Of a stretch of DNA of 64,000 nucleotides, positions 43,703 through 53,334 are shown one piece after another. The position numbers and the translations under genes are program-made. The stretch covers positions 92,043 through 156,042 of the forward strand of contig JAIXTE010000129.1 in the NCBI GenBank assembly GCA_027484315.1, read 5' to 3'. The notes below the pieces were generated by a model. That model saw only the letters and a list, made by a program, of their open reading frames with translations. It made no database searches and was not told the origin of the DNA. Each line of letters opens with the position of its first letter. Position 1 is the stretch's first letter. The DNA is from Burkholderiales bacterium (lineage in GTDB: Bacteria; Pseudomonadota; Gammaproteobacteria; Burkholderiales; Burkholderiaceae_B).

Positions 43703-46642
43703 ATGTTAAAGAAGAGAGAAGACACAACAGTGGGCAAGGCGATTCCCAACCACAACCACAGTTTGCTGAACAAGATCGGATCACGCCTGGGTGCCACAAT
43801 GGACCGCCGTGCATTTCTGAAGCGTTCGGGCATTGGCGTGGGCGCGGGTGCTGTTGCAGGCAGCTTGCCCTTTGGTATGGTCCGCAAGGCCGAAGCCAAG
43901 GCTGAGGGTGGTACTGCAGGCGGAAAAATTGAGATCAAGCGTACAATTTGTTCGCATTGCTCAGTAGGCTGTGCCACCGACGCAGTTGTTCAGAATGGCG
44001 TTTGGGTTCGTCAGAACCCTGTATTCGACAGCCCGATCAACCTGGGTGCACATTGTGCCAAGGGCGCAGCATTGCGCGAACATGGTCATGGCGAACACCG
44101 CCTGAAGTACCCCATGAAGCTGGTTGACGGCAAGTACCAGAAAATCACCTGGGACGAAGCACTGGACGGCATCACCAAGAAGATGTTGGCGCTGCGTGAA
44201 GAGAACGGCCCTGATTCGCTGTTTTTCATTGGTTCCTCCAAGCACAGCAACGAGCAGGCTTACCTGCTGCGCAAATGGGTTTCCCTGTGGGGCACCAACA
44301 ACTGCGACCACCAGGCGCGTATTTGCCATTCCACCACAGTGGCTGGTGTGGCCAACACCTGGGGTTATGGTGCAATGACCAACTCCTACAACGACATGCA
44401 AAACACCAAGTGTGCGTTGTACATCGGCTCCAACGCTGCTGAGGCTCACCCTGTATCCATGCTGCACATGTTGCATGCCAAGGAAACAGGCGCGAAGATG
44501 ATCGTGGTGGACCCACGCTTCACACGCACGGCAGCCCGTGCGGATGAATATGTGCGCATTCGTTCCGGCAGTGACATTCCATTCCTGTTCGGCATGCTCT
44601 ACCACATTTTCAAAAATGGCTGGGAAGACAAGAAGTACATCAATGACCGTGTCTATGGCATGGACCAGATCAAGGCCGAGGTGATGGCCAACTGGACACC
44701 CGACAAGGTCGAAGAGGCTTGTGGCGTGGGCGAAGCCCAGTTGTACAAGGTCACCGAAATGATGGCCAAATCCAAGCCATCGACCATCGTGTGGTGTATG
44801 GGTCAAACCCAGCACACTATCGGTAACGCCATTGTTCGTGCCTCCTGCATCTTGCAACTGGCCTTGGGCAACGTCGGTATTTCCGGTGGTGGGACCAACA
44901 TTTTCCGTGGTCACTGCAACGTTCAAGGCGCCACTGACGTGGGCCCGAACCCGGATTCACTGCCTGGCTACTATGGCGTGGCAGAGGGTTCCTGGAAGCA
45001 CTGGTGCCGTGTGTGGGGACTGGACTACGAATACGTCAAGAGCCGCTATGCTGAAGGCATGAGCACCAAGGGCGGTATGACAGTCTCGCGCTGGGTAGAC
45101 GGTGTGCTTGAGAACCCGGAACTGATCGATCAGAAAGCAGGCAACCTGCGTGGTTTGTTCTTCTGGGGGCATGCACCGAACTCGCAAACCCGTGGTCTGG
45201 ACATGAAAAAAGCCATGGACAAGCTGGATTTGCTGGTCGTGGTCGATCCTTACCCAACCGCAGCAGCAGCCATGGCTGCGATGCCAGGTGACCCTGCAGG
45301 TTTGAACCCGAATCGGGAAGTGTATCTGTTGCCAGCTACAACCCAATTTGAATCATCCGGTTCAATCACGGCTTCCAACCGGTCCATTCAGTGGCGTGAG
45401 AAGGTGATCGAGCCTTTGTATGACAGCCGCAATGACCACATGATCATGTATCAACTGGCCGAGAAGCTGGGTTACGCAGCAGAGTTGACCAAGAATCTGA
45501 CCATGGTCAAGGGCAAGGGCGGCATGATGGAACCGGAGATCGAATCCATCTTGCGTGAAATCAACAAAGGCACCTGGACAATCGGTTACACCGGTCAAAG
45601 CCCCGAACGCCTGAAGTTGCACATGAAAAACATGCACACCTTCAACGTTCGCACCTTGAAAGCAGAGGGCGGACCTTGTGATGGTGAATATTTCGGTTTG
45701 CCATGGCCATGCTACGGCACGCCCGAAATGAAGCATCCCGGTTCTCCCAACCTGTACCAGACCGACAAACACGTGATGGACGGTGGCGGGAACTTCCGCG
45801 CCAACTTCGGTGTGGAAAAAGACGGTGTCAGCCTGTTGGCTGAAGACGGATCACACTCACTGGGTGCTGAAATTACAACCGGTTATCCCGAATTCACAGC
45901 GGACATGATGAAACAGCTGGGCTGGTGGGACGATTTGACCGAGGCGGAGAAAACCGAAGCCGAAGGCAAGAACTGGAAAACCGACCTGTCAGGTGGTATT
46001 CAGCGCGTTGTCATGAAGCATGGTTGCCATCCTTTCGGTAACGCCAAGGCCCGTGCCGTGGTGTGGAACTTCCCTGATCCAATACCCAAGCACCGCGAAC
46101 CGCTGTACTCGACCAAGCCTGACCTGGTGGCCAAGTACCCAACGCATGACGACAAGGCTGCTTTCTGGCGCTTGCCAACCCTGTACAAATCAGTTCAGGA
46201 AAAGAATGCCGACATTGGCAAATCCTTCCCCTTGATCATGACGTCAGGTCGTTTGGTGGAGTACGAAGGTGGTGGTGAAGAAACACGTTCCAACCCCTGG
46301 TTGGCTGAATTGCAACAAGACATGTTTGTTGAAATCAACCCCAAGGCAGCGAATGACCGCGGTATCAAACATGGTGATCAGGTTCGCGTGACTACACCGA
46401 CCGGCGCAAAAATCCAGGTGCAAGCCTTGGTTACCCGCCGAGTGGCTGCAGACACCGTGTTCTTGCCTTTCCACTTCTCAGGACACTGGGAAGGAAAGGA
46501 CATGATCAGCAGCTACCCCGAAGGCGCCGCACCCATTGTGCGTGGCGAATCCGTCAACACCGCAACCACCTATGGTTACGACGTGGTGACGATGATGCAG
46601 GAAACAAAAACAACCGTGTGCCAAATCGAGAAGTTGGCATAA
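43703..46642 (+). CDS. Formate dehydrogenase catalytic (alpha) subunit, Cys-type
   Basis: Tat signal DRRAFLKRSGIG; CSHCSVGCATDAVV 4Fe-4S site; active-site segment DHQARICHSTTVAG has Cys, in frame with no UGA. Confidence 0.95.
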   Translation: MLKKREDTTVGKAIPNHNHSLLNKIGSRLGATMDRRAFLKRSGIGVGAGAVAGSLPFGMVRKAEAKAEGGTAGGKIEIKRTICSHCSVGCATDAVVQNGVWVRQNPVFDSPINLGAHCAKGAALREHGHGEHRLKYPMKLVDGKYQKITWDEALDGITKKMLALREENGPDSLFFIGSSKHSNEQAYLLRKWVSLWGTNNCDHQARICHSTTVAGVANTWGYGAMTNSYNDMQNTKCALYIGSNAAEAHPVSMLHMLHAKETGAKMIVVDPRFTRTAARADEYVRIRSGSDIPFLFGMLYHIFKNGWEDKKYINDRVYGMDQIKAEVMANWTPDKVEEACGVGEAQLYKVTEMMAKSKPSTIVWCMGQTQHTIGNAIVRASCILQLALGNVGISGGGTNIFRGHCNVQGATDVGPNPDSLPGYYGVAEGSWKHWCRVWGLDYEYVKSRYAEGMSTKGGMTVSRWVDGVLENPELIDQKAGNLRGLFFWGHAPNSQTRGLDMKKAMDKLDLLVVVDPYPTAAAAMAAMPGDPAGLNPNREVYLLPATTQFESSGSITASNRSIQWREKVIEPLYDSRNDHMIMYQLAEKLGYAAELTKNLTMVKGKGGMMEPEIESILREINKGTWTIGYTGQSPERLKLHMKNMHTFNVRTLKAEGGPCDGEYFGLPWPCYGTPEMKHPGSPNLYQTDKHVMDGGGNFRANFGVEKDGVSLLAEDGSHSLGAEITTGYPEFTADMMKQLGWWDDLTEAEKTEAEGKNWKTDLSGGIQRVVMKHGCHPFGNAKARAVVWNFPDPIPKHREPLYSTKPDLVAKYPTHDDKAAFWRLPTLYKSVQEKNADIGKSFPLIMTSGRLVEYEGGGEETRSNPWLAELQQDMFVEINPKAANDRGIKHGDQVRVTTPTGAKIQVQALVTRRVAADTVFLPFHFSGHWEGKDMISSYPEGAAPIVRGESVNTATTYGYDVVTMMQETKTTVCQIEKLA

Positions 46643-46668
46643 GCACTTGATGCAAAGGAGATAACAAA

Positions 46669-47271
46669 ATGGCACGAATGAAGTTTCTATGTGATGCCGA
46701 GCGTTGCATTGAGTGCAATGGCTGCGTCACGGCCTGTAAAAACGAACACGAAGTGGCTTGGGGTATCAACCGCCGCCGCGTCGTGACCATCAACGACGGC
46801 GAACCCGGAGAGCGCTCTATCTCCGTGGCTTGCATGCACTGTTCAGACGCGCCTTGCCAGGCCGTGTGTCCAGTGAATTGCTTCTACAAAACCGATGAAG
46901 GTGTCGTGTTGCACGACAAGGACCTGTGTATCGGTTGTGGATATTGCTTCTACGCTTGCCCGTTCGGCGCACCACAATTCCCACAGGAAGGTGCATTTGG
47001 TCAGCGCGGCAAAATGGACAAGTGCACATTCTGTGCTGGCGGTCCTGAAGAAGACACTTCAGAAGCCGAGTTCGAGAAGTATGGTCGCAACCGCCTGGCT
47101 GAAGGCAAGCTGCCACTTTGCGCAGAAATGTGTTCAACCAAGGCCTTGCTGGCTGGTGACGGCGACGTAGTCTCCGACATCTTCCGCAACCGTGTGGTTG
47201 TTCGTGGCAAAGGCGCCGAAGTGTGGGGCTGGAGCTCAGCCTATGGTCAGCCAGCGAAGGAGGGCGCGTAA
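46669..47271 (+). CDS. Formate dehydrogenase iron-sulfur (beta) subunit
   Basis: CIECNGCVTACKNEHEV, CMHCSDAPCQAVCPVNCF, CIGCGYCFYACPFGAPQFP. Confidence 0.94.
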   Translation: MARMKFLCDAERCIECNGCVTACKNEHEVAWGINRRRVVTINDGEPGERSISVACMHCSDAPCQAVCPVNCFYKTDEGVVLHDKDLCIGCGYCFYACPFGAPQFPQEGAFGQRGKMDKCTFCAGGPEEDTSEAEFEKYGRNRLAEGKLPLCAEMCSTKALLAGDGDVVSDIFRNRVVVRGKGAEVWGWSSAYGQPAKEGA

Positions 47272-47273
47272 TC

Positions 47274-47537
47274 ATGGCGCTTCGCAGCAAGCTGATTTTA
47301 TCCGGCGCAGTTGCAGGCCTTGTTCTGGTTGCCGGCTGTTCACCCCTGGAAGACGCCAATAACGGCAAGGGTTATGCGGGCAAAGCGGACACCCACGCCT
47401 TTGAAACAGGCGGCGGTGAATTCACCGCTGGCGGTTTCAAGGCAGGTGACAAGGAAGGCTGGGCAGACAACCTGAACGTTCGGGCCAAGGCGCAAAACGA
47501 GTACGTGCGTACTGGTGATTCGGCAAAGGCCCAATAA
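47274..47537 (+). CDS. Small lipoprotein between FDH beta and gamma genes
   Basis: 87 aa; signal peptide with lipobox LVAGC; AGGAGG upstream. Confidence 0.75.
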   Translation: MALRSKLILSGAVAGLVLVAGCSPLEDANNGKGYAGKADTHAFETGGGEFTAGGFKAGDKEGWADNLNVRAKAQNEYVRTGDSAKAQ

Positions 47538-47549
47538 GGAGAGTCAATC

Positions 47550-48626
47550 ATGACACATTCAACCATTCGGGCAGCGGCAAAGCCGGGCTTGAACAACGCC
47601 CTTGTGGCTTTGTTCACCGCCCTGGTGTTTGCTGTCTGCGCACTGTGGTCGGTCGGGGCCATGGCGCAAGACGCTTCTGAACGCTCACAAGCGCAAGTTC
47701 AGAAACAGCAAACCCAGCCCTTGAACAATTCACCGGTTTGGTCAGGTGTTGCTTCAGGTGAGTCCTTCACCACGGTGACCAAAGGCCGTGAAACTGGCGT
47801 TTTGATCAACAAAAGCGGTGAAACCTGGCGTGAAATGCGCAACGACTGGATTTCATTCATCGGTGGATGGGCAGTGGCCTTGGTGTTTTTGGCAATTGTC
47901 GGGGCTCACTTGGTAAAAGGCCCCGTGAAACTGCCCGAACCACGCACTGGAAAGCTGATCGAGCGCTTTACATCTGCTGAACGCCTTGCCCATTGGACCA
48001 TGGCTTTCAGTTTCGTAGCACTCGCGTTGACTGGCTTGTTGTTGATGTTTGGCAAGCACGTGCTTGCACCTTGGATGGGGCTCACGCTCAATTCATGGCT
48101 CGCTTCCATCAGCATCGTGATCCACAACTTTGTGGGCCCACTTTTCGCGGTCAGCATCATTGTGTTTTTCATCATGTATGTCAAAGACAACATGCCTGAG
48201 AAGAACGACATTGAGTGGCTCAAGAAAGGCGGCGGTATTTTCGGTCACGCACCAGCAGGCCGTTTCAACATGGGCGAGAAAATCTGGTTTTGGGGTGGTG
48301 TCACGGTACTTGGCCTGGTGGTGTCTACCACCGGCTTGATCCTTGACTTTCCGAACTTCGACCAGCCACGCCTGTTGATGCAGCAATCGCATGTCATTCA
48401 TGCCAGCGCAGCCTTGTTGTTCATCATCATGTCGATGGGCCACATCTACATTGGTTCAATCGGTATGGAAGGTGCACTTGAAGCCATGCGTGATGGCTAT
48501 GTGGACGAAACCTGGGCCAAGGCTCACCACGACGCTTGGTACGACGACATCAAATCCGGGAAGATTTCACCTGTTCGTTCAAAAGAAGGTGAAGCGGCCA
48601 TGGGATCTCAGGTAATGGTTCACTAA
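47550..48626 (+). CDS. Formate dehydrogenase cytochrome b (gamma) subunit
   Basis: RFTSAERLAHWTMAFSFVALALTGLLLMFG; FVGPLFAVSIIVFFIMYVKDNMP. Confidence 0.93.
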   Translation: MTHSTIRAAAKPGLNNALVALFTALVFAVCALWSVGAMAQDASERSQAQVQKQQTQPLNNSPVWSGVASGESFTTVTKGRETGVLINKSGETWREMRNDWISFIGGWAVALVFLAIVGAHLVKGPVKLPEPRTGKLIERFTSAERLAHWTMAFSFVALALTGLLLMFGKHVLAPWMGLTLNSWLASISIVIHNFVGPLFAVSIIVFFIMYVKDNMPEKNDIEWLKKGGGIFGHAPAGRFNMGEKIWFWGGVTVLGLVVSTTGLILDFPNFDQPRLLMQQSHVIHASAALLFIIMSMGHIYIGSIGMEGALEAMRDGYVDETWAKAHHDAWYDDIKSGKISPVRSKEGEAAMGSQVMVH

Positions 48627-49050: not shown

Positions 49051-50103
49051 GTGAATAAAATCAAATTTTTTGCGATTTCTTCAATATTCATCCTGTCCGC
49101 TTGCGGTTCCGATGGATCAACTCCAACCAGTGCATCCAGGGTCGGCGCGAGTGGGTTTGTCTCCTCCGATTCACCTGCACCCCCGCTTGAAATTTCCAGC
49201 CAGGAACTGGACAGCGCCATGAAATGCAGCGAAGGTTTCGGGCCAGATTCAGGGCGAGCTGTTTTATTGGTGCCAGGTGCTACGCAAACAGTTGAAAGCA
49301 ACTTCAGCTGGAACTACATACCCGCTTTCGATAAAGCGGGTATTCCATGGTGTGCGGTTGATTTACCCAATAGCAACACAGGTGAATTGCAGGCCTCTTC
49401 TGAATACATCACCCACGCCATTCGCAAAATGTTCAACACCACCAAGACGAAAATTGCGATTGTCGGTTTTAGTCAGGGCGGTGTGATGCCTCGCTGGTCA
49501 CTGAAATTCTTTCCAGACACACGCGACATGGTTGAGGACATGATTGGCATTGCAGCAGCCAACCACGGCTTGATTGAAGCCAACTTGTTGTGTGCCCCAC
49601 CTGTTGTTGGATGTATCACCTCGTTCACACAAATTGCAGTGGGTGCCAAGTGGATGGATGCATTGAACGCCGGCGGCGAAACATTGGCCGGAATTGACTA
49701 CACGCAGATTTATACTCGGACCGACGATGTGGCTATACCCAACTTTGATGAGGCCAACGGTGTATCCAGCTTGCGTACAGGGGATGGCAACAAGGTGAAC
49801 ATTGCAACACAGGACATTTGCCTGACCAACACGGCGGACCACTTTTTGGTGGGTTCATCCGATGCCGTGGGCTTCGCGATTGTTTCAGATGCCTTGGCTC
49901 ATCCTGGTGTCGCCAGTGTCGAACGATTGCAGGCACTCGCCCCTGAGCTGTGCCTGACACCGTTCATGCCGGGCGTGGATCCGCTGATGTTCCCAATCAA
50001 CTTTGCCACCAAGATGATGAGCACTTTCGCTCAATCAGTGACCTTGCAACCCAAAAGCACAGAAGAGCCAGCACTGCGCTGTTATGCAGGTGGCGAGTGC
50101 TGA
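49051..50103 (+). CDS. Lipase-like alpha/beta hydrolase lipoprotein
   Basis: Lipobox ILSACGS; VLLVPGATQT; nucleophile elbow GFSQGG. Confidence 0.82.
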   Translation: MNKIKFFAISSIFILSACGSDGSTPTSASRVGASGFVSSDSPAPPLEISSQELDSAMKCSEGFGPDSGRAVLLVPGATQTVESNFSWNYIPAFDKAGIPWCAVDLPNSNTGELQASSEYITHAIRKMFNTTKTKIAIVGFSQGGVMPRWSLKFFPDTRDMVEDMIGIAAANHGLIEANLLCAPPVVGCITSFTQIAVGAKWMDALNAGGETLAGIDYTQIYTRTDDVAIPNFDEANGVSSLRTGDGNKVNIATQDICLTNTADHFLVGSSDAVGFAIVSDALAHPGVASVERLQALAPELCLTPFMPGVDPLMFPINFATKMMSTFAQSVTLQPKSTEEPALRCYAGGEC

Positions 50104-50133: not shown

Positions 50134-50166
50134 AAACCGCCTTTCAGCAATGAATGGCGGTTTTTT
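50134..50166 (+). terminator. Rho-independent terminator after lipase gene, overlapping 3' end of convergent gene
   Basis: AACCGCC (50135-50141) / GGCGGTT followed by T-run. Confidence 0.7.
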
Positions 50167-50857
50167 CATGGTGCATTTGGCGAATGCTCTCCAACACAGC
50201 CAAGCCACTGCGCATTGTGTGAAGGCCGCTGACCCCCAACGCAACCTCATCTCGCGGTGACAGATACAGGCCATCAATGAGTGCTTGAATTTCAACCTTG
50301 TGAATCAGGTCCAGTTTTTCATGGCGTGAAATGGCTCTGAATGAATCCAGACCATAACCGGTCAATTCACTCAAGTACCTGGCAAATCCGGTGGGTGGGT
50401 GATAGTTTTCCAAGGCAGCAACATGGCCCATCACCATCACAGGATGGTGGTGCAAAATCCAGTAATACTGCGCCCCCACCATATTGGCCACTTCACAAGA
50501 CGGTATTTTGGCCAGCAAATGTTCAGGGTTGCGGCCAGTGGCTGCATAATCTTCGAGCAACCACAGGTCATGGCCCCGTTCTTCTTCGATGTGCTTGACC
50601 AAGTATTCAATCAGGTCTGATTTCAAGGCACTTGATGCGGGTAATTTCCTGGCAGCCTGTACTGCGGTTTCCATCAGTGAAACGCCTGCGCGAACTACCA
50701 TGTTCATCTGTTCCAGGTACGAAGGGTAAATGGAATGGGCATCCGGGCCAGCCCAAAGTTGCTGGGCCTCATGTTGCAGGGCAGGCTGAACCAGTTCCAG
50801 CTTGTTGATAAGCCGGGTGAAAGGGGTATTGGTGGGGGTACTCAACTGGGTGTTCAA
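50144..50857 (-). CDS. Heme-oxygenase-like diiron / TenA-PqqC-like protein (iron-containing redox enzyme family)
   Basis: 237-aa helical protein with LVKHIEEERGHDLWLLEDY (HxxExxxH) and ILHHHPVMVMGHVAALENY; ATG overlaps stop of radical SAM gene (ATGA). Confidence 0.75.
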   Translation of the reverse strand: MNTQLSTPTNTPFTRLINKLELVQPALQHEAQQLWAGPDAHSIYPSYLEQMNMVVRAGVSLMETAVQAARKLPASSALKSDLIEYLVKHIEEERGHDLWLLEDYAATGRNPEHLLAKIPSCEVANMVGAQYYWILHHHPVMVMGHVAALENYHPPTGFARYLSELTGYGLDSFRAISRHEKLDLIHKVEIQALIDGLYLSPRDEVALGVSGLHTMRSGLAVLESIRQMHHEKTAIHC

Positions 50858-51822
50858 TGCGATTCTCCAAGTTGCGCGACCGCATTGATCAATCGGTCTG
50901 TTTCAGGCAGGCTTGGAAATGCCTCCATGACTTTCCAGCACAGATCGCAGTTGTTGATGTACCTCTTCTCCGACAATGCCAGCAAGCGCGGGTGCTTGAC
51001 CAACTCCCCCAAGCCAACATCGGCGACACATCGCATCAAAGGGTCCGCCTTGAACCTTGCAAGTGCTGTATCCAGCGCCTCCCGATTCTTCACACGCGTT
51101 CGGAATCGGTCAGGTCCTTTGCCCATGATCACTTCCTCATTGCAGCAGGAGGTTAGTACCCCGTCGTATCGAATCACCGGTGTTACTGCCAGTGTGCAGC
51201 TACCCATGGCCCCAGCCTTTTTTGCTGGGCTCAAGTCGTATACGTCATGTCCCCGCCCATTTCGAAGCGGTGTGATGGCTACAATTTCCGCGTGGGTGTC
51301 AGCATTGGTTCCGAAGGCTTGTTCCAGCAAGTGTCGTGTGTGTTCCACCTCCAGGGTCTGCACCACAATCCAGGCACCGGCATCTGCAATCTGCCTGGCC
51401 GCTTGAACAAACACGGAAGAGGGCACACCATTTTGATGAAAGGAATCTGTGCTCAAGTACACAGTGCAGCACGATTCAAGTACTGACCTGATCCAAGGTG
51501 CAGACTTCAGACTTTTCGCCCAAACACCACTGGTGTAAATCACGATCGATTTGTTACAGGCCGACAGGGCTTCGCAAGCCTTGGTCAGCCCACGCCGTTC
51601 AGAAAAAGGCTCTCCGCCAGAAATACCCACGACCTGAATGTCGGGGTCACCACAAATGCCATCAAGCAAGTTGTCGAATAGGCCAAAATCCGTGATCATT
51701 GGGCTGTTTGCGCGGGAGTCGACCGAGCAATGGGCACAACCCACCGGGCAGCGGTCTGTAATAAACAACAGAACGGAATTCCCCCGTGTGCGCCGTGCAA
51801 TCTCAATGTCGTTGTGTTTCAT
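50854..51822 (-). CDS. Radical SAM protein A (putative RiPP maturase)
   Basis: CPVGCAHC CX3CX2C motif, GISGGEPF, C-terminal extra Cys (TSCCNEE...NCDLC); start MKHNDIEI inferred. Confidence 0.88.
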   Translation of the reverse strand: MKHNDIEIARRTRGNSVLLFITDRCPVGCAHCSVDSRANSPMITDFGLFDNLLDGICGDPDIQVVGISGGEPFSERRGLTKACEALSACNKSIVIYTSGVWAKSLKSAPWIRSVLESCCTVYLSTDSFHQNGVPSSVFVQAARQIADAGAWIVVQTLEVEHTRHLLEQAFGTNADTHAEIVAITPLRNGRGHDVYDLSPAKKAGAMGSCTLAVTPVIRYDGVLTSCCNEEVIMGKGPDRFRTRVKNREALDTALARFKADPLMRCVADVGLGELVKHPRLLALSEKRYINNCDLCWKVMEAFPSLPETDRLINAVAQLGESH

Positions 51823-51826
51823 GGCA

Positions 51827-52891
51827 TCAGGCACCCAACAGAACCAGTTCCGCAAAACGCGGGTGACTGTAGCGCTTCGCAAAACCCACTGCGCCCAATT
51901 CAAGCTGCAAATCCACCACCGAATCGCCCAGTATTCTTGCGCCCGGTTTCAGCATTTGGGAACTTACGCCCACTTGAATTGCATCCTGTGCACCAAGGTT
52001 GATGCAGGTGTCGCAGTAGCCTTTGCAGCCCGTCTTGCCCTGACTGCCGAATTTGGTTTGCAGGTACTCTGGCCCATAGGTTCTCAGTGCAATTTGCATG
52101 GCGTTGTCAACGCAACGCGACCGAATGTCCGCCCAGCTGTGAATGCGAATATCCCCAAGCCTTAAATGGCTTGGAACCCGCCCGATCAAATTGTCATTTC
52201 CGCAAGCAGCCACTACCCCGTCAAAACCAACCACAGGCCAGGCCGCCATGGTGCAGGGGCTTGCCTCTACAGTCTTTGTGCTTGGTGATGCAGTTTGAAT
52301 GAAGAAGGTTTTCGCCCTGCCAAACGGTGACAGGGTATTGACCATCATCGGGATGCGCTTGCCAAAGCGCTTTTGAACGAGATTCACCAAATCGTCCAGG
52401 TACGGATCGTCTTCTCTTTCGCCAGCGATGTGCAGGCTCAGGTGTTTTCCCTCATCCAATAATTGATTTAAAACAGTAAACACGTTCGAGCGGGGAACTT
52501 CACGCTCATGAAATGCGTCCATGCTGACCGAGAAATGATCCACCGCATCGATTGCCGATTTGACCGATTTGGGAATGCCTGGCTTTCGCGCAAAAAAAAG
52601 CCCTGACAGCACACTGGACTTGGTGCCCGATGCGCGCGCCTTCAAAGCAAGATTTTTCACCAGTGCAGGTCGAAGCAGGGCTTCACCACCCGACATGGCC
52701 ATGAATTCCGGGTGAGAAGCTTCAGTAAATGTGTCAACAAACCGATTGAACAATTCGGGTCGGCTTTGCTCGCTTTGCATGGTCGAGCTTGTTGAACAAT
52801 GGGCACAGCTTAGGGGGCAACGCCGTGTAATGCCGACTGAAACTCCGGCGGCTGGTACTGCACGACGAGCTAGCATTTCGACAAGGTGCAT
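51827..52891 (-). CDS. Radical SAM protein B (putative RiPP maturase), paralogous to the adjacent one
   Basis: CPLSCAHC CX3CX2C motif, AMSGGEALLRP, C-terminal extra Cys (AACGNDN...CKGYCDTC). Confidence 0.88.
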   Translation of the reverse strand: MHLVEMLARRAVPAAGVSVGITRRCPLSCAHCSTSSTMQSEQSRPELFNRFVDTFTEASHPEFMAMSGGEALLRPALVKNLALKARASGTKSSVLSGLFFARKPGIPKSVKSAIDAVDHFSVSMDAFHEREVPRSNVFTVLNQLLDEGKHLSLHIAGEREDDPYLDDLVNLVQKRFGKRIPMMVNTLSPFGRAKTFFIQTASPSTKTVEASPCTMAAWPVVGFDGVVAACGNDNLIGRVPSHLRLGDIRIHSWADIRSRCVDNAMQIALRTYGPEYLQTKFGSQGKTGCKGYCDTCINLGAQDAIQVGVSSQMLKPGARILGDSVVDLQLELGAVGFAKRYSHPRFAELVLLGA

Positions 52892-52925: not shown

Positions 52926-52957
52926 GGGGCATTGAAGCAAATTGCATCCAATGCCCC
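52926..52957 (-). promoter_or_regulatory. Hairpin between putative precursor gene and radical SAM genes
   Basis: Perfect 9-bp stem GGGGCATTG (52926-52934) / CAATGCCCC (52949-52957), 14-nt loop, no downstream U-tract on the minus strand. Confidence 0.6.
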
Positions 52958-52982: not shown

Positions 52983-53207
52983 CTACCAAACAAATCCACC
53001 CACAGTGTCCGCAGCATTCTTCAGCTTTTCGTCCAGCCCTGAATTCAACTTCGACTTGATGCTGGTTAACACCGCCAACTCATCATCATCGAGCTTGGCT
53101 ACTTGCGCTTTCAAATTGTCGCTTAGTGCATCCAGCTGGAATGCAGCGCCAGTGGCTTTGACGCGCATTGATCGAGCAGAACTCATACCTGTTTTTTCTT
53201 CAGACAT
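52983..53207 (-). CDS. Putative RiPP precursor peptide (74 aa, Cys-free, C-terminus GGFVW)
   Basis: MSEEKTGMSSARSMRVKATGAAFQLDALSDNLKAQVAKLDDDELAVLTSIKSKLNSGLDEKLKNAADTVGGFVW; AGGGG RBS; first gene of co-directional cassette with two radical SAM genes. Confidence 0.65.
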   Translation of the reverse strand: MSEEKTGMSSARSMRVKATGAAFQLDALSDNLKAQVAKLDDDELAVLTSIKSKLNSGLDEKLKNAADTVGGFVW

Positions 53208-53334
53208 AACAATCCCCTATTGGTGTAGTTGACGCATTGAAAGACAATGCCCAATAAGTTGTACGCCGGGCAGGTTAACCCGTCAAAAATCGATTCGGTT
53301 CTGCTGCTGCCTTCTGAACGGTAGGCAACAAAAA

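Follow-up and report, generated by a model that had tools for sequence, protein, structure and literature searches.

The window, a stretch of 64,000 nucleotides from a Burkholderiales bacterium, contains a compact minus-strand operon in the order precursor peptide gene, stem-loop, RS1, RS2 and HDO. The precursor gene (52983..53207, minus strand) encodes 74 aa, MSEEKTGMSSARSMRVKATGAAFQLDALSDNLKAQVAKLDDDELAVLTSIKSKLNSGLDEKLKNAADTVGGFVW-stop, and follows a putative ribosome-binding-like site, AGGGG (53214..53218, minus strand), read from the sequence; the plus strand over 52983-53207 has stops. RS1 (51827..52891, minus strand; 354 aa) and RS2 (50854..51822, minus strand; 322 aa) are radical SAM proteins identified by profile and alignment. 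HDO (50144..50857, minus strand) is a haem-oxygenase-fold protein (PF14518) identified by profile, alignment and fold. RS2 starts 4 bases past the RS1 stop, and the HDO gene overlaps the RS2 stop. The stem-loop between the precursor gene and RS1 (GGGGCATTG...CAATGCCCC; 52926..52957, minus strand; z -3.9) has no U-tract. Two loci from the same genus as the window, L009 and L010, preserve its 8-bp stem despite differing flanks, and comparison of the same intergenic region across L008, L009 and L010 found the stem kept in these relatives. The element may serve in transcript processing or in stabilising the precursor mRNA.

An RNase E gene lies upstream of the operon and does not look part of the unit. 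A lipase-like ORF (49051-50103, plus strand) was rejected as an operon member, being convergent and downstream. Near the operon, the ORF list also indicates a formate dehydrogenase-like set with molybdopterin, FeS and cytochrome b-like subunits (43703-48626, plus strand). We found no dedicated protease or exporter linked to the operon within the window, and no linked regulator at the operon. At L009 the cassette occupies another chromosomal site with the same gene order, indicating that the cassette is mobile or retained as a whole. In the window, the G+C of the cassette equals that of its surroundings, which gives no sign of recent import.

Residues 23-60 of the precursor match the NCBIfam model NF045560, the 'aroma-sacti cluster domain', at 36.9 bits against a curated cut-off of 30. 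The match is marginal; the L009 homologue scores 34.3 bits. The window's own genome carries a single copy of this leader domain. Structures were modelled for the window proteins and those of loci L006 and L007 from shallow alignments. In the 74-mer, helices are predicted at residues 8-23, 30-37 and 41-69; confidence is moderate for the middle part (block means about 71), and pLDDT falls below 50 over the tail at 69-74. The earlier note had described a helical acidic leader. The helix model with its loose, low-pLDDT tail agrees with the first half of that description; acidity is confined to a local patch (DDDE at 40-43), the whole peptide having 11 acidic and 10 basic residues. The precursor contains no Cys. 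Sactipeptide and ranthipeptide assignments, which require a donor Cys, were rejected on this ground, and thioethers are likewise excluded.

The precursor has homologues in four further genomes of the genus, and all five peptide-bearing genomes share the end TVGGFVW. Across codons 65-74 (AADTVGGFVW), the window differs from L009 by seven synonymous and from L010 by six synonymous changes, with no amino-acid change in either comparison; codons 1-63 differ by 12 and 16 amino-acid changes, respectively. Because the tail codons change synonymously while codons 1-63 change amino acids, the ORF is a true gene and no chance reading frame, and these codon comparisons indicate that selection is acting on the precursor at its tail. 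We take the GGFVW codons (residues 70-74; 52986..53000, minus strand) as the proposed core. The earlier note had asked whether GGFVW is the conserved part; it is, being invariant in the four relatives of the genus, with a GG-x-x-aromatic end kept in more distant ones.

To place the leader domain, we searched one genome per species with the NF045560 model, genes being found by homology. Scores above cut-off came from 73 of the 299 Streptomycetaceae genomes, from 4 of the 397 in a wider phylum sample and, among 274 genomes of the window's class, from the window's own genome only. In a 399-genome sample of the window's phylum, matches besides the window look due to chance: that at L136 lies inside a long ORF reading like topoisomerase, the ORF matched at L135 has no related tail, and both were rejected. 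Outside Actinomycetota, the system appears, within the genomes sampled here, only in the window's genus. The window operon has radical SAM and haem-oxygenase-like neighbours; NF045560 also covers loci without them. Two more divergent HDO-linked precursors, at L058 and L060, give sub-threshold matches to the NHLP-clan RiPP model NF038399, a hint that the NF045560-type leader originated there and is distantly NHLP-like. L058, L059 and L060 have HDO alone of the three enzymes (HDO-only loci), and Val is the last residue of their precursors (EWV, VHV, HMV).

Both radical SAM proteins carry a CX3CX2C motif, and the best solved relative of each is EpeE/YydG (8ai1-8ai6; E 2e-11 for RS1 and 1e-15 for RS2). 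Alignments revealed four further invariant Cys in RS1 and likewise in RS2, as expected for one auxiliary cluster per protein. No Pfam match to a PqqD-like RiPP recognition element was found in RS1, RS2 or HDO. In EpeE, Cys223 returns a hydrogen atom to the C-alpha radical (PMC5682303). By alignment this H-donor site is chain position 248, the second Cys of a CC pair. We derived the numbering offset of 25 from the D-to-A change carried by 8ai6, presumably D210A; Asp210 of EpeE is conserved in neither RS1 nor RS2.

RS2 of the window retains the donor as Cys227, and RS1 has Gly231 in its place. All 12 RS2 proteins and all 46 RS1 proteins from loci without RS2 have the donor Cys, so that every system retains at least one enzyme with it; RS1 from RS2-bearing loci has Gly or Thr there in 9 of 11 cases, the window's kind included. 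On the RS1 tree, loss of the donor Cys occurred in few lineages, so the p-value for this pattern likewise serves as description only. RS2-less proteins form one clade (support 100/99), and RS2-bearing lineages fall outside it when the tree is rooted on RS2, so the window has what looks like the older, three-enzyme form. The closest Streptomyces relatives of the window on this tree are L092, L121, L123 and L124 (pairing support 83/68). A single 661-aa ORF spans RS1 and HDO in a Catenulispora MAG (L006:4830-6815, plus strand), which is either a natural fusion or a MAG artefact.

HDO matches PF14518 at 34.7 bits (cut-off 28.9) and aligns with 3dde (profile E 2e-12) at all six positions of a 3H/3C ligand set, E93, H96, E150, H179, D183 and H186. 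These positions are conserved across 19 relatives, with one or two exceptions at H96. The HDO model is of low confidence (mean pLDDT 62), and its fold matches 3dde, UndA and CADD. By these sequence criteria HDO is probably an iron oxidase of the diiron type. In HDOs solved with substrate, Fe1 is directly ligated by the substrate (PMC13108848). The haem-oxygenase-like protein VarO has been proposed to desaturate Arg in the thiovarsolins (PMC6511847). Our search of the open PMC literature found no other HDO-like protein reported in a RiPP pathway and no report of an HDO acting on a peptide C-terminus. To our knowledge, no HDO is known to act there.

The kinship of RS1 and RS2 with EpeE, the donor Cys kept in RS2 and the VarO precedent would together suit an epipeptide-like system, in which RS1 and RS2 install D-residues only, HDO acts elsewhere by hydroxylation or desaturation of a side chain and the product is longer and membrane-active. 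However, both proteins fall far under the 300-bit cut-off of the YydG/EpeE equivalog TIGR04078 (RS1 47.5 bits, RS2 41.5 bits), RS1 of the window has lost the donor Cys, and conservation of the precursor is concentrated in its final 5-10 residues. We consider such a system unlikely.

We then asked how precursor tails are distributed over gene contexts. Fetching 85 loci, mostly from Streptomyces, and searching them for precursors, RS1, RS2 and HDO gave 96 precursor ORFs. The 68 precursors that accompany an RS1 gene all terminate in G[GAV]-x(2-3)-[F/W], a pattern broadened once the GAGIF and GVGIF cases had been seen; at loci without RS1, an aromatic-type tail occurs in 4 of 28 (Fisher p ~1e-15 to 1e-18, a descriptive figure that ignores relatedness). 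The tail is AG[GA]ALF in 47 precursors at RS1+HDO loci, and GGFVW, GGVVW, GGLVW, GGALLW, GGLFF, GAGIF or GVGIF at loci with RS1, RS2 and HDO. The other 24 RS1-less precursors have tails such as IKLA, KLL, NVLC, RIG or, at HDO-only loci, EWV/VHV. Two of the four exceptions (L011, L127) are on contigs cut inside the operon. The other two have the same leader and a GGLLF end, with a cytochrome P450 in place of RS1/HDO (L125:8256-9923, L129:6983-10656), so the tail is not strictly tied to RS1/RS2/HDO; the P450 may represent an enzyme swap on the same tail. L125 also encodes a pro-kumamolisin-type secreted protease. In Streptomyces, L092, L121, L123 and L124 have the same gene set as the window and three tandem precursors each, the tandem copies carrying different tails (GGLVW/GGVVW/GGLFF).

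These results bear on whether the peptide is a RiPP precursor at all. A protein this small and helical, with its conserved acidic motif, could be regulatory or structural and lie beside the enzyme genes by chance, and some Streptomyces loci do pair the same leader with other tails and lack these enzymes. Against this, the tail changes together with the enzymes, three tandem copies with GGLVW/GGVVW/GGLFF fit substrates better, and the HDO-only relatives touch NHLP-clan RiPP models, albeit below the NF038399 cut-off; a chance neighbour is therefore highly improbable. The RiPP-type precursor proposed in the earlier note is borne out by the conserved GG-aromatic C-terminus, and the link it drew to radical SAM proteins and a diiron enzyme extends, as an association with two radical SAM proteins and a diiron-type enzyme, across phyla. 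Neither a variable C-terminus nor a lack of linkage to radical SAM genes, the outcomes that it held would speak against its reading, was found. We put the probability that a precursor with a GG-x-x-aromatic C-terminus is matured here by RS1, RS2 and HDO at about 0.8, and the tail is very probably the part modified.

The same collection of tails narrows the possible chemistry. An aromatic crosslink within the tail, as a three-residue cyclophane or a C-C/C-N link between F72 and W74, had been among the earlier suggestions, and the F-V-W spacing fits it in the window alone. Relatives with the same enzymes end in GGVVW, GGLVW or GGALLW, with no aromatic residue two before the end, and other relatives end in ALF. 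This makes the crosslink very unlikely in the window and unlikely as a general chemistry; a triceptide/cyclophane assignment was rejected for the same want of a first aromatic residue in the relatives' tails. The GG had also been read as a possible double-Gly cleavage site. That proposal is not supported: GA, GAG and GVG variants exist, only 3-4 residues follow the GG, and no C39-type peptidase or transporter was present in the loci whose genes were examined. Nitrilobacillin was considered as a possible precedent for C-terminal modification and set aside, since the enzyme used there is asparagine-synthetase-like.

Several actinobacterial loci showed further features. A cyclase/AAA/TPR regulator adjoins the precursor at L092:3623-7761 (minus strand), L057:9696-13720 and L056:2414-6423 (minus strand), together with a small subtilase-family gene that is possibly a leader peptidase; L056 additionally has a RamC-like kinase-lanthionine synthetase gene and an MFS gene upstream. 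At L092:8343-9845 (minus strand) and L121:4986-6779 (plus strand), the first precursor and an MFS transporter form one uninterrupted reading frame (501 and 598 aa); the free peptide may also be made from an internal start that has a purine-rich site. L091, L106, L109, L114 and L119 lack RS1/HDO and encode leader-domain peptides in divergent pairs, one peptide ending KLL and the other VC or LC; these appear to be a different subfamily.

The earlier note held that the tail chemistry cannot be picked from sequence alone, and our analysis agrees; the following scheme is proposed with that reservation. Sequence establishes the operon, the conserved tail, its association with the enzymes and their catalytic residues. 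The helical leader (NF045560 domain) would present the flexible GG-x-x-aromatic C-terminus as the core. The predicted diiron site of HDO would bind the free C-terminal carboxylate of W74, leading to O2-dependent oxidation of W74, because the substrate ligates Fe1 in HDOs (PMC13108848) and the conserved residue is always last. Action of HDO on the terminal residue is a conjecture that we slightly favour. UndA-type oxidative decarboxylation to a C-terminal enamide (-46.005 Da) would be the plainest and single most likely HDO outcome, since a C-beta hydrogen is adjacent (F and W, or V in the HDO-only relatives), though as a specific assignment it stays tentative. RS2, with its donor Cys kept, would take a C-alpha hydrogen from the tail, epimerisation of a residue being the likeliest result, an assignment we hold at somewhat under even odds. 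RS1, with its donor Cys lost here, would form a similar radical whose more probable fate is oxidation or bond formation. The short tail would then be released by unlinked proteases.

A mycofactocin-like route would lead from the same tail to another end: the terminal V-W would be decarboxylated, C-C linked and excised as a small redox molecule, as is Val-Tyr of MftA. In that pathway, MftC removes the carboxylate of MftA's C-terminal Tyr and joins this residue to Val (PMC5682303; PMC8326336). The window system and its relatives have a hydrophobic-aromatic C-terminal dipeptide after Gly (VW, LF, LW), the core is very short and no exporter is linked in the window. But RS1 scores 15.1 bits against the 265-bit cut-off of the mycofactocin radical SAM family, this family is absent from the RS2 matches, the operon has no MftB/MftE-like gene, and in Streptomyces the loci include regulator, MFS and subtilase genes, much like secondary-metabolite clusters. 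A cofactor precursor of this kind is thus rather improbable. Returning to maturation by RS1, RS2 and HDO, we tentatively propose a RiPP class in which HDO would oxidatively decarboxylate the C-terminal aromatic (or Val) residue, using its carboxylate as an iron ligand, and two EpeE-like paralogues would divide the radical work, the one with the H-donor Cys being of the epimerase type and the one that has lost it of an oxidase or bond-forming type.

Radical SAM-modified RiPPs are a known kind, and NF045560 was named by NCBIfam with no chemistry found so far; our search of the open PMC literature found no experimental study of this precursor family or its product. For this uncharacterised family, the analysis offers a testable core definition, a hydrophobic-aromatic tail of 3-4 residues after GG. 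It places a leader domain present in about a quarter of the sampled Streptomycetaceae in a Gram-negative genus, and brings HDO and radical SAM chemistry together at the extreme C-terminus of a peptide. Lineages that gained or lost RS2 or the H-donor Cys furnish a natural experiment on the division of labour between radical SAM paralogues.

Among known systems, the StsA-related sactipeptides (NF045559) show weak leader similarity (13.7 bits for the window, below cut-off, and up to 44 for Streptomyces relatives), but with no Cys in the window precursor a thioether is impossible. The thiovarsolins share an HDO-fold protein in a RiPP cluster (PMC6511847), whereas the proposed target of VarO is an Arg side chain, and its cluster has YcaO-TfuA and no radical SAM protein. 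Mycofactocin (MftA/MftC) resembles the window system in how it works, with chemistry on a C-terminal hydrophobic-aromatic dipeptide; it differs in that neither precursor nor enzymes match its families, MftB/MftE are absent, and a separate HDO and two radical SAM proteins are present. The epipeptide epimerase EpeE (YydG) is the best solved relative, with one auxiliary cluster and a donor Cys shared with RS2; in contrast, the window lacks Asp210 and the donor Cys of RS1, its precursor is unrelated and HDO is added. The NF045560 proteins of Streptomyces share the leader domain, the RS1 and HDO neighbours and the GG-x-x-aromatic end; with no linked regulator, protease or exporter, the window system is set apart from these by its Gram-negative host, its three-enzyme form and its FVW tail.
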